NCBI RefSeq assembly: GCF_021021555.1
Contig: NZ_JAINWA010000001.1
Span: 682,001-746,000 of the forward strand
DNA length: 64,000 bases
DNA from: Teretinema zuelzerae
GTDB taxonomy: Bacteria; Spirochaetota; Spirochaetia; Treponematales; Treponemataceae
Reading direction: 5' to 3'
Shown here: positions 60,410-63,237 of the stretch, in pieces
How positions within the stretch are numbered: position 1 is the first letter of the stretch
Layout of the letters: every line of letters starts with the position of its first letter
Program-made: the position numbers and the translations under genes
Notes under the pieces: model-generated
The model's database searches: none
What the model saw: the letters and a program-made list of their open reading frames with translations, nothing else
Told to the model about the DNA's origin: nothing

Positions 60410-60438
60410 TTGACTCAATAAAACCAACCAGATATACT
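60410..60438 (+). promoter_or_regulatory. promoter of tRNA-Thr
   Basis: -35 TTGACT (60410-60415), 17-bp spacer, -10 TATACT (60433-60438). The tRNA starts 20 bases downstream of the -10 box, leaving a short 5' leader. Confidence 0.7.
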
Positions 60439-60458: not shown

Positions 60459-60531
60459 GCCAAGATAGCTCAGTCGGCAGAGCAGCACCCTCGTAACGTG
60501 CAGGTCAAGGGTTCGATTCCCTTTCTTGGCT
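60459..60531 (+). tRNA. tRNA-Thr (anticodon CGU)
   Basis: 73 bases folding as a standard tRNA. Acceptor GCCAAGA/TCTTGGC, D stem GCTC/GAGC, anticodon loop CTCGTAA with anticodon CGT, variable AGGTC, T stem AAGGG/CCCTT with loop TTCGATT, discriminator T. CCA is not encoded. The anticodon stem GCACC/CGTGC has a C-C mismatch next to the loop (position 31-39). G1-C72 and C2-G71 agree with threonine identity. It is followed by a terminator and then three elements copying its 3' end. Confidence 0.9.
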
Positions 60532-60533
60532 AG

Positions 60534-60568
60534 AAAAAAGGTCAGTCCAACAGGACTGGCCTTTTTTT
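60534..60568 (+). terminator. bidirectional-looking terminator after tRNA-Thr
   Basis: A-run, then stem GGTCAGTCC/GGACTGGCC with a 4-base loop, then seven T. A-run before and T-run after allow use on either strand. Confidence 0.85.
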
Positions 60569-60571
60569 ATG

Positions 60572-60711
60572 GGCCAAGAAAGGGAATCGATCCGGAGCGA
60601 CGTCCCGAGCGCTGCGAGGGCTTGGCGCATGGATGCGCCAAGAGTCGCGGAGGCGGCCTGGAAGGAGCGCGTACGACGCGCGCGACTGCAAGGCGATTCC
60701 CTTTCTTGGCT
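60572..60711. repeat. tRNA-Thr-derived inverted-repeat element, copy 1
   Basis: A 140-bp unit. Its left end (60572-60589) and right end (60694-60711) are 18-bp inverted repeats with one mismatch, and the right end equals the last 17-18 bases of the tRNA gene (GATTCCCTTTCTTGGCT). The middle contains a perfect 10-bp stem, CTTGGCGCAT, with loop GG (60621-60642), and a smaller stem GCGCGT/ACGCGC. No start codon or Shine-Dalgarno supports a protein, although frames are open on both strands. Confidence 0.85.
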
Positions 60712-60713
60712 AG

Positions 60714-60748
60714 AAAAACAACCGGTCTTTGGGCCGGTTGTTTTTTTT
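60714..60748 (+). terminator. terminator after element copy 1
   Basis: A-run, stem CAACCGG/CCGGTTG around an 8-base loop, then eight T. The stem sequence differs from the terminator after the tRNA. Confidence 0.8.
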
Positions 60749-60751
60749 ATA

Positions 60752-60891
60752 GGCCAAGAAAGGGAATCGATCCGGAGCAACGTCCCGAGCGCTGCGAGGG
60801 CTTGGCGCATGGATGCGCCAAGAGTCGCGTAGGCGGCCTGGAAGGAGCGCGTACGACGCGCGCGACTGCAAGGCGATTCCCTTTCTTGGCT
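60752..60891. repeat. tRNA-Thr-derived inverted-repeat element, copy 2
   Basis: 140 bp, starting 180 bp after copy 1 and differing at only a couple of positions (for example GAGCAACG for GAGCGACG, GTAGGCGG for GGAGGCGG). Both inverted ends and the central hairpin are intact. Confidence 0.85.
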
Positions 60892-60893
60892 AG

Positions 60894-60927
60894 AAAAAAG
60901 GTCAGTCCACAGGACTGGCCTTTTTTT
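60894..60927 (+). terminator. terminator after element copy 2
   Basis: Same stem GGTCAGTCC/GGACTGGCC as the terminator after the tRNA, loop shortened by one base, seven T. Confidence 0.8.
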
Positions 60928-60930
60928 ATG

Positions 60931-61069
60931 GGCCAAGACTGGGAATCGATCCGGAGCAACGTCCCGAGCGCTGCGAGGGCTTGGCGCATGGATGCGCCAA
61001 GAGTTGCGGAGGCGGCTCGCAGGGAGCACACACGAAGTGCGCGACCGTAGAGGATTCCCTTTCTTGGCT
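60931..61069. repeat. tRNA-Thr-derived inverted-repeat element, copy 3 (diverged)
   Basis: 139 bp, 179 bp after copy 2. The left end is altered (GGCCAAGACTGGGAATCG) and the right third is diverged (AGCACACACGAAGTGCG in place of AGCGCGTACGACGCGCG), but the stem pairing is kept by paired changes. The central hairpin is identical. The right end keeps GATTCCCTTTCTTGGCT. Confidence 0.8.
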
Positions 61070-61071
61070 TT

Positions 61072-61109
61072 AAAAAAAGCGCGCGATCCAAAGGATCGTA
61101 CGCTTTTTT
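61072..61109 (+). terminator. terminator after element copy 3
   Basis: Seven A, a G+C-rich imperfect stem GCGCGCGATCC/GGATCGTACGC around AAA, then six T. Confidence 0.75.
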
Positions 61110-61155
61110 AAATTTTGCCCAAAACGTAAAACACATGCAAAAAACGCACACGCGA

Positions 61156-61169
61156 AACGTGCAGGTCAA
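61156..61169. other. 14-bp copy of the tRNA-Thr anticodon-arm 3' half; possible attachment-site remnant
   Basis: AACGTGCAGGTCAA is identical to tRNA bases 60495-60508 (anticodon-stem 3' strand plus variable arm). It lies 87 bases beyond the third element, at the border with A+T-richer DNA. No integrase gene is in the window. Confidence 0.4.
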
Positions 61170-61290
61170 AGAAAACTAAATCGTTGCTATATAAATAGTT
61201 AGTGTTTTTTTCTGAGTCAGAAAATGCGAATTGTGCAATGAATGTGCAATGGGAAAGCTCAGCTGGCTTTAAAAAACGTCCTGAACTAAA

Positions 61291-61344: not shown

Positions 61345-61635
61345 TTAAACTGTAAGAATTTGTTCTACATATTCAGGATTTTTCGATACGATCTTTAACA
61401 GGGCTAAGGCCGGACCTTCCGGCTTTCGACGACCCTGCTCCCAATTTCGCAAGGTGGCAACACTTACTCCGATCATGTATGCAAAATCGGCTTGGGTTTT
61501 GTTACTGTGCTCGCGAATAGCCCGAATATCAGGGGCGTTCATTTCAAACCTTCGGCTTTCTTTCTGATGTCCCCTTTGAATTTTTCCAGCTTCTTTTATA
61601 CTGTCAACAAGCAATGCAAAATCATTGTCGTTCAT
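61345..61635 (-). CDS. HigA/NadS-type HTH antitoxin, able to start internally
   Basis: 96 residues in the same frame as the xylanase, beginning at an ATG (61635-61633) with its own strong site GAAGGAGGAACTAAA. HTH: IRAIREHSNKTQADFAYMIGVSVATLRNWEQGRRKPEGPALALLKI, the Xre-type domain of antitoxins paired with RelE/HigB toxins. The site and the ATGA overlap with the toxin remnant show that this was the second gene of a toxin-antitoxin operon. It may still be made on its own from this start. Confidence 0.75.
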   Translation of the reverse strand: MNDNDFALLVDSIKEAGKIQRGHQKESRRFEMNAPDIRAIREHSNKTQADFAYMIGVSVATLRNWEQGRRKPEGPALALLKIVSKNPEYVEQILTV

Positions 61636-63237
61636 TTTAGTTCCTCCTTCACAAGACGATTCAGGATTTTCTTTTGTTCCTGACTTAAATCTTCCTGCAG
61701 TGGTGTGAACCAATTTGACTTGGCTAATAGAAACGACACCTGTGGCCTGCCCAAGATTGAAAGCAAACTGCGATGCAGGATCGCTCTCGTTGGTCATCGT
61801 GAACACGAATTCATAATCCTGTTCAGACGAAGTCAAGTCGAATTCCTGCGAAGCATAGCTCGCCCATGGATTCGCCGACTGCTGGAACGAAACTTCAATT
61901 CGTCTTTCGGATTCTGCTTTTGCCTTAAAGGTCAGCTTGTACATCATGCCCTGGTCTAAACCCAATCCGTACTGCACCAGCTGAGGCTGATACGATTCAG
62001 CTCCAATGGTGGTTACGTTGATGGCGGCCATTCCGTTGCTCACGCTCGTCGAAGCCTCCGAATCACCCCAGTATTCTCCCTGACCTAAACGCCATGAGGC
62101 CGCGTCATTTTCAGCAATCACAGAACTCGTAGGAAAATCTCCATCCTTGATCAGATTCGCGGTACCTTCTCCAGACACCAAAGCAAACTTAGCCGTAACC
62201 GAACGATTTTCACTCATACTGACGGTGGTGGAAGTAGCGGAACCAGTGGCATCGCCATCCCAGCCAATAAACCTCCAACCTGTATTCGGAGTTGCCGTCA
62301 GTTCTACAGATGTATTGGGTGCATAGGAGCTTTTATCTGGAGTTTTGGTTACGGATCCCGCACCCGAGGGTGAAACATTTGATATCAGACTGAGTTCATC
62401 CACTGTGGTACTTCCACCAAAAGTCAAAAGATTTTTGGTCACTTTTGCAGATCCGTTCCCTTTTCCTCGACCTGTATTATCTTTACCCGAATAGGATTCT
62501 ACTTTCATGGCCACTTCGTACAGGGGGCAATCCATCATTTTCATGCCTGCTTTATCCCAGGCCTCGAAGTGTTTGGATACAGAAACTTTTCCACTTTGTC
62601 TATGGCTACTCGTGTTTTTGGGAACACTAAAATACTGTTTAAAATTACCTTTCCCAGTCAGCATCGCCTCGTTTAGCCTGTCGGCCACCCAGAACTCATA
62701 TTCAATCCCGTCAATCGTTCCACTACCATAGCGCTTTGCGTTTCGGCCACCTGAAGCGGGATTAAAAGAGCCACGGTCCTGAATGATATAGTATTCAATC
62801 TGATTGGAAAACGTGGCATTTTCATTCTTTTCTGTTTTTTTCGGTTTACTTCTCGCAGGGTAATAGGCCCATCCATAGATGCCAAGCATTTTGACATCAT
62901 CCGTGGAACTCCACGTTGCCGCAAAATCAACGGTGATTTTCCCCACATCCCTAGGAGTGGTAGTACTGGAAGCCCCCCATTTTTTGCCCGCTCGAAACAG
63001 AACGTTAATGGTCCCATTCCACTGGGCCTCGAATGTGCCGCCGTTTGGATCGGAACTGCCACCCGTGATTTTCATGATAGAAGTACCCACGTTGTCTTGG
63101 TTCCACAGTTCGTAGTCTATGCCATTGCAATTTCTAATAGTACTGGAAGTCCAAGTGCTGTAATCTTGCCCCCATGTGAGCGAAGCTCCCAATGCCACAC
63201 CTGCAAGTGCCGTGAATAGACATTTTTTGATACTCAT
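61345..63237 (-). CDS. GH11 endo-xylanase fused to an HTH antitoxin
   Basis: 630 residues. Signal peptide ~1-23 (FTALAGVALGASLTWG). GH11 jelly roll ~27-275 with nucleophile Glu148 (IEYYIIQD), acid/base Glu247 (MKVESYSG), and KVSVSKHFEAWDKAGM. A bacterial InlB-like repeat (~286-353) and a CBM4/9-like carbohydrate-binding domain (~360-511) follow. Residues ~512-534 are the remnant of a toxin gene read in another frame, and 535-630 an intact HTH antitoxin. The enzyme would cut xylan outside the cell. Codon use is A+T-richer than its neighbours and the layout recalls Fibrobacter-type fibre degraders, so transfer is likely. AAAGGGATTTGT precedes the ATG. Confidence 0.85.
   Translation of the reverse strand: MSIKKCLFTALAGVALGASLTWGQDYSTWTSSTIRNCNGIDYELWNQDNVGTSIMKITGGSSDPNGGTFEAQWNGTINVLFRAGKKWGASSTTTPRDVGKITVDFAATWSSTDDVKMLGIYGWAYYPARSKPKKTEKNENATFSNQIEYYIIQDRGSFNPASGGRNAKRYGSGTIDGIEYEFWVADRLNEAMLTGKGNFKQYFSVPKNTSSHRQSGKVSVSKHFEAWDKAGMKMMDCPLYEVAMKVESYSGKDNTGRGKGNGSAKVTKNLLTFGGSTTVDELSLISNVSPSGAGSVTKTPDKSSYAPNTSVELTATPNTGWRFIGWDGDATGSATSTTVSMSENRSVTAKFALVSGEGTANLIKDGDFPTSSVIAENDAASWRLGQGEYWGDSEASTSVSNGMAAINVTTIGAESYQPQLVQYGLGLDQGMMYKLTFKAKAESERRIEVSFQQSANPWASYASQEFDLTSSEQDYEFVFTMTNESDPASQFAFNLGQATGVVSISQVKLVHTTAGRFKSGTKENPESSCEGGTKMNDNDFALLVDSIKEAGKIQRGHQKESRRFEMNAPDIRAIREHSNKTQADFAYMIGVSVATLRNWEQGRRKPEGPALALLKIVSKNPEYVEQILTV
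61632..61691 (-). pseudogene. 3' remnant of a RelE/HigB-like toxin gene
   Basis: Read one base out of phase with the xylanase frame, the DNA encodes DLSQEQKKILNRLVKEELK and a TGA that overlaps the antitoxin ATG as ATGA. This is the usual ending of RelE-like toxins. The toxin's N-terminal and catalytic part is missing, replaced by the xylanase/CBM sequence; the exact junction lies a little upstream, about 61691-61725. Confidence 0.6.

Follow-up and report, generated by a model that had tools for sequence, protein, structure and literature searches.

Organization of the array behind tRNA-Thr

Downstream of the tRNA-Thr(CGT) gene of Teretinema zuelzerae lie three tandem units of ~140 nt (139-140 nt; positions 60572-61069 of the window, by which we mean the whole 64,000-nt stretch of DNA analyzed), and the question raised by this locus is what such units are and what they might do for the cell. 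An earlier note on this DNA had described three units with tRNA-Thr-derived inverted ends and terminators of their own, a description that sequence, coordinates, and folding all confirmed (Table 1). The right ends of the units repeat the tRNA-Thr 3' end (...CGATTCCCTTTCTTGGCT), while the left ends are its inverse complement, GCCAAGAAAGGGAATCG, over a perfect 17 bp in units 1 and 2 and with two mismatches in unit 3 (AAGACTGGG). Start-to-start spacing was 180 and 179 nt, and identity to the first repeat was 91% for unit 2 and 73% for unit 3. The central hairpin, CTTGGCGCATGGATGCGCCAAG, was perfect as the note had stated, although it comprised 9 bp in the fold rather than the 10 bp claimed, and the right-hand stem of the third copy (the P5 arm) is indeed altered and still pairs in the predicted folds. 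Terminator-like hairpins with an A-tract and a T-tract come after tRNA-Thr and after every unit; those after tRNA-Thr and unit 2 are near-identical, while those after units 1 and 3 are different, and therefore the units were not simply duplicated along with their terminators, a point on which the note was right for the window array. Exact duplication of the trailer does occur at other loci. An assembly artefact was ruled out, because units differing in sequence are present in many genomes and at many tRNAs.

Table 1. Features of the tRNA-Thr(CGT) array in window coordinates
Feature	Position	Strand	Remarks
Sigma-70-like promoter ahead of tRNA-Thr	60410-60438	+	TTGACT-17-TATACT; 10/12 consensus matches; consensus match only
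tRNA-Thr (CGT)	60459-60531	+	3' end is the source for both unit ends
Terminator-like hairpin after tRNA	60534-60568	+	GGTCAGTCC/GGACTGGCC; A-tract before, T-tract after; from sequence
Unit 1	60572-60711	+	Model R1, 159.6 bits
Left arm of unit 1	60573-60589	+	Inverse complement of tRNA 3' end; right arm is its copy
Hairpin P4 of unit 1	60621-60642	+	GGA-bearing loop CAUGGAUG, CsrB-like
Terminator-like hairpin after unit 1	60713-60748	+	AACCGG/CCGGTT
Unit 2	60752-60891	+	Model R1, 153.9 bits
Terminator-like hairpin after unit 2	60894-60927	+	Near-copy of the post-tRNA hairpin
Unit 3	60931-61069	+	130.3 bits; 3' half diverged, P5 stem compensated
Terminator after unit 3	61072-61109	+	
Partial copy of tRNA-Thr	61146-61169	+	88% copy of anticodon-arm region (60485-60508)
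TGTGCAATGAATGTGCAATG direct repeats	61232-61251	+	Like those before the integrase gene in L222 and those beside other arrays

The partial tRNA-Thr copy beyond the array resembles the terminus of an integrated element, and a stretch similar to it comes after a tRNA 3' half at another locus (L229). Farther along, a single open frame on the minus strand (61345-63237) encodes glycosyl hydrolase family 11, bacterial repeat, and carbohydrate-binding domains and ends C-terminally in an Xre/MqsA-like helix-turn-helix; this last part could instead be an antitoxin gene in its own right, with an internal ATG as its start.

Family size and distribution

BLAST searches with the unit core returned relatives in 17 of 40 related genomes, nearly all of them directly behind some tRNA and one behind tmRNA. 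A covariance model built from seven units (R1) located 12 units at seven loci in the T. zuelzerae genome, namely behind tRNA-Thr, two Met tRNAs, Leu(CAA), and tmRNA, and at two sites where only the tRNA 3' part is left. Across the order, this model detected units in 74 of 119 genomes; in a phylum sample of 296 genomes it did so in 45, nearly all of the same class. Counts reached ~17 units per genome, with 1-5 per locus (three in the window). The search, which the earlier note had proposed, also upheld the tie to tRNA 3' ends and the presence at many tRNAs: 169 of the 201 distinct units collected are preceded, on their own strand, by an intact gene for a tRNA or for tmRNA, and the upstream genes are of 15 kinds (Met, Leu, Ser, Thr, Glu, Pro, Gly, Asn, Val, Ala, Gln, Lys, Arg, Trp, and tmRNA). 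Of the other units, many lie at the end of a contig or come after the 3' half of a tRNA that has had its 5' half replaced, which is the result produced when integrative elements recombine into tRNAs. At one locus (L079, 1240-2764), a run of tRNA-Ser genes has several units in between, with cores that are 98-99% identical and left arms that are different.

Outside the spirochaetes, high scores were obtained in only 1 of 398 genomes of a sample centered on G388 (L244, 35 bits, with no tRNA nearby) and in none of 199 genomes of a sample centered on G390, both of them small samples searched with strict filters that would miss weak relatives. Pattern matches drawn from the genome collection outside the spirochaetes reached a model score of at best 15.8 bits.

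Unit ends are copied from the local gene

The agreement between unit ends and the upstream gene was measured over the 169 units. Right ends matched the last 18 nt of their own gene at a mean of 16.7/18 positions versus 9.7/18 for other genes, and left ends matched the inverse complement of their own gene at 12.8/18 versus 9.4. Right-end matches of at least 16/18 were found in 142 of the 169, and the window units matched at 18/18 over 17-18 nt. The same rule was evident in 202 pairs of units that have cores at least 78% identical and stand behind different kinds of gene (core identity between units at different genes being 78-87%): right arms fitted their own gene at 16.9/18 and that of the partner at 9.5/18, with corresponding values of 14.6 and 9.4 for left arms. 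It is the core that travels or is inherited, and the ends are local. In addition, 37 of 114 first units are followed by a near-exact repeat of the trailer that separates the RNA gene from the left arm.

RNA structure and covariation

The predicted structure consists of helix P1, made by the tRNA-derived arms, P2, P3 (a hairpin with tandem G-A), and the hairpins P4 and P5; conserved GGA/GGA and GA/GA internal loops were seen by eye in the alignment. The RNA of unit 1 folded at -82.4 kcal/mol (z = -6.4), with 0 of 200 shuffled sequences folding equally well. Among 110 distinct units, all 43 pairs of the common structure vary on both sides, and 91.3% of cells were paired as compared to 59.1% in shuffled controls; fitting the alignment to the model inflates the paired fraction, but is unlikely alone to produce a contrast this large. 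The covariation score was 0.677; shuffled controls gave 0.169, and slid structures never exceeded 0.08. Core helices contained 89 G-U/U-G cells versus 29 A-C/C-A cells (nominal p = 3e-8, the related sequences not being independent), an excess which indicates that selection acts on the sense-strand RNA. The selection on RNA or DNA structure suggested in the earlier note was thus supported, by covariation and by the G-U excess, for RNA.

Some units deviate from the common form. The interiors of units at L029, L037, and L033, and also at L224, contain a second repeat (..AGGCAAACGGCCCGAAGGG.CGTATG..) or another insert within the P4 loop, as if, to judge by these sequences, the loop of the P4 hairpin were itself an insertion target. 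In a unit after tRNA-Pro (L023), the P5 arm is now a long uninterrupted hairpin (GGGCTTCATGGAGCGC...GCGCTCCATGAAGCC).

Relationship to E. coli tRNA-linked repeats

It had been stated in the earlier note that no described family fits, and this was wrong: the tRNA-linked repeats (TLRs) of E. coli do. According to Egan and Landy 1978 and Rudd 1999, as cited in PMC8144298, E. coli has 22 such units at 10 loci. In PMC8144298, the sole paper on the subject found in the open-access literature, TLRs are treated as E. coli/Enterobacterales elements, most of them without known function. Like the spirochaete units, E. coli TLRs are positioned directly 3' of tRNA or rRNA genes, occur as 1-5 units per locus, and are of similar size, with a spacing of 178 bp at tyrT; they also share the end rule, in that the 3' 18-19 bp are identical to the 3' end of the gene (PMC8144298). 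The tyrT (rtT) units, behind tRNA-Tyr, are closed by a helix of 10 bp that derives from the 3' end of the tRNA and also contain a CGAGCGnnnGCGAG hairpin like the spirochaete P3, and the lysV TLR has a duplicated terminator, as in spirochaete loci. The spirochaete elements differ from E. coli TLRs in having an inverse left arm, as long as 17 bp, in being linked to at least 15 kinds of RNA including tmRNA, in reaching ~17 per genome, and in bearing GGA in P4 and often in P5 loops, whereas the hairpin loops of E. coli rtT lack GGA.

Known families gave no direct match. At the window, no Rfam family reached its gathering score, the RtT family (RF00391) gave no match up to E = 1, and miRNA-like matches were rejected as chance matches to hairpins. 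When a spirochaete-trained model (R2) was applied with filters off to 25 kb of tRNA/rRNA operons from E. coli, however, the first-ranking position was the TLR RrB at 18.4 bits, followed by three rtT units at 15.4, 15.0, and 13.7 bits; the E values of these four (0.006-0.07) are individually weak, yet four TLRs topping all positions are not likely to have done so by chance. Judging from these sequence scores, common descent of spirochaete and E. coli TLRs is likely but unproved. The three units of the window are thus, very probably, TLR-type RNA elements, and a tRNA-linked regulatory RNA, one of the options listed in the earlier note, is supported.

Evidence for a possible link to CsrA

GGA was present in 191 of 209 P4 loops and 149 of 209 P5 loops, most commonly as CAGGAUG, CAUGGAUG, CAGGGAUG, or ACAGGAUGU; the ~30% of P5 loops without GGA mostly have ACGA. 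In the window units, GGA was confined to the P4 loops, all three P5 loops being without it. Relative to shuffled units, CAGGA(U/A/C)G, which is the repeat element of CsrB (PMC7652899), was found at 14.5 times the shuffled rate, as opposed to only 1.25 times for GGA overall. The free-standing regulators CsrB, CsrC, RsmX, and RsmZ (Rfam clan CL00106) have the same CAGGA(U/A/C)G-type hairpin loops but differ from the units in lacking tRNA-derived ends. Sub-threshold Rfam matches were obtained to CsrC and rsmX at the window and to PrrB/RsmZ on the units of L130 (28.8 bits), and no unit reached the CL00106 gathering score (best 28.8 bits versus 44). In selected CsrA ligands, GGA is displayed by a hairpin loop at whose base AC pairs with GU, and the stem mostly has four or fewer pairs (PMC7652899); in this last respect the long P4 stems are unlike them.

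Three members of the E. coli family offer a precedent. RrA, RrB, and RrF, located behind 5S rRNA, are products of readthrough transcription, and in vitro they bind both Hfq and CsrA (PMC8144298). Like the spirochaete units, these Enterobacterales sRNAs belong to the TLR family and have GGA-bearing hairpin loops, including GCAGGACGC, and their readthrough RNA is made between two terminators; they differ in being linked to 5S rRNA instead of tRNA and are otherwise diverged in sequence. Most E. coli TLRs (19 of 22) are predicted not to bind CsrA (PMC8144298).

CsrA was found in 66 of 74 genomes with TLRs versus 25 of 45 others (Fisher p = 4.5e-5, a value that ignores phylogeny and is driven by whole clades). 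Eight TLR genomes had no CsrA found, most of these being incomplete, with the exception of G018 (99% complete), and 25 genomes with CsrA show no TLR. In the CsrA-less G018, GGA was kept in two of four distinct P4 loops, which is suggestive of loop decay but involves too few loops to use. The units, then, quite possibly bind CsrA, though we would stop short of calling this probable.

Alternative explanations

Among other readings, the one that survives best is that the units are a small mobile element which inserts on the 3' side of tRNA genes, copying both of its ends anew from each target, its RNA structure serving movement and not host regulation; we consider this possible but somewhat unlikely. 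The similar cores with ends fitted to different tRNA and tmRNA genes and the trailer repeated behind about a third of first units are in its favor, as is the fact that nearest neighbors of the core lay at another tRNA of the same genome in 18 cases versus 3.0 expected. Nearest neighbors were usually in another genome, however, and were at the same tRNA of another genome in 47 cases versus 7.7 expected, which makes vertical descent or homologous exchange at least as common. Both excesses together imply that units are inherited or exchanged at one tRNA and also pass between tRNAs. E. coli lysV bears on the same point, since this site has 0, 1, or 2 units among genomes (L215, L241, L242, L243) and a direct duplication of 61 bp (one mismatch), which begins in the T-loop and ends 11 bp beyond the terminator, brackets the unit there; as this duplication can serve equally to delete the unit, gain and loss are indistinguishable at the site. 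In an O157 strain, other DNA with a FlxA-like gene, perhaps a prophage, follows the lysV tRNA. The earlier suggestion of a miniature mobile element was therefore borne out as to similar cores with ends that fit different genes, but neither an associated mobility protein nor a mechanism was found. A bolder version, which we judge unlikely, is that TLRs are RNA-based mobile elements spreading from one tRNA or tmRNA gene to another by a copying process, with both termini re-templated from the target, and that spirochaetes have kept them as dispersed, tRNA-coupled CsrA-binding RNAs; re-templating would duplicate the region from T-loop to terminator, and the left arm would be its inverse copy.

That the units might be cis-acting readthrough devices, in which the left arm is antisense to the 3' half of the tRNA and the unit controls tRNA maturation or guards against misfolding of readthrough RNA, seems quite improbable to us. 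The tRNA, trailer, and left arm are predicted to form a long hairpin that destroys the cloverleaf, and the right arm of the unit could compete off this predicted hairpin, but the device leaves the conserved P3-P5 core and the GGA loops unexplained and the left arm is often an imperfect match to the tRNA (12.8/18).

Still less probable is the view, offered in the earlier note, that the units are attachment-site copies, either by-products or end parts of integrative elements at tRNA 3' ends. Association with integrases by a C-terminal motif gave false positives only and was redone by tblastn, which placed the tyrosine recombinase family (PF00589) near the arrays of L011, L012, L022, L080, L095, and L197. 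Also in line with this view, the array at about ten loci has nothing but the 3' half of a tRNA ahead of it, resembling the far end of an integrated element. By the same tblastn searches, the family was absent near most arrays (present at under ten of ~146), and for this reason we regard integrative elements as making use of the same tRNA genes and not as the cause of the arrays, which remain with the tRNA 3' half when elements integrate. Moreover, attachment sites need no conserved RNA fold with covariation and a G-U excess, and L222 has an integrase at tRNA-Thr yet no unit. In the genome concerned (G001; L222, L229, L237), tRNA-Thr is followed directly by an integrase-bearing element, a second tRNA 3' half by another element end, and a third 3' half by the unit array, apparently through stacked integrations that displaced the array from its tRNA.

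Finally, a REP-like or attC-like hairpin recognized as single-stranded or cruciform DNA would account for the strong inverted repeats and for hairpins forming on either strand but is highly improbable given that G-U pairs in the sense-strand core exceed A-C pairs three to one and that the sense strand of unit 1 folds better than the antisense strand (z -6.4 versus -4.6).

Proposed function and implications

The explanation that we prefer is that the array consists of three tandem spirochaete TLRs acting as a growth-linked readthrough RNA that titrates CsrA; taken whole, it is in our judgment probable, if only slightly so. RNA polymerase passing the tRNA terminator would make the unit RNA, which would then be processed. 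Pairing of the 5' arm with the 3' arm would create helix P1 and close a junction of the P2-P3-P4 arm and the P5 arm, so placed that P4, and often P5, would expose GGA in small CsrB-type hairpin loops. The likeliest job of such an RNA, and the function that we tentatively favor, would be that of a sponge that binds and titrates CsrA in proportion to tRNA transcription, through which growth rate would be coupled to the targets of CsrA.

A large, strongly covarying counterpart of TLRs in a distant phylum, at many tRNA genes and tmRNA, would make these elements a general class of stable-RNA-linked RNAs. Spirochaete TLRs offer a structure, a testable ligand in CsrA, and the evolutionary puzzle of how a core of ~100 nt gains ends that match its target. 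FliW is a suggested CsrA antagonist in Leptospira (PMC8668096), and the TLRs described here may provide CsrA-antagonist RNAs for spirochaetes.
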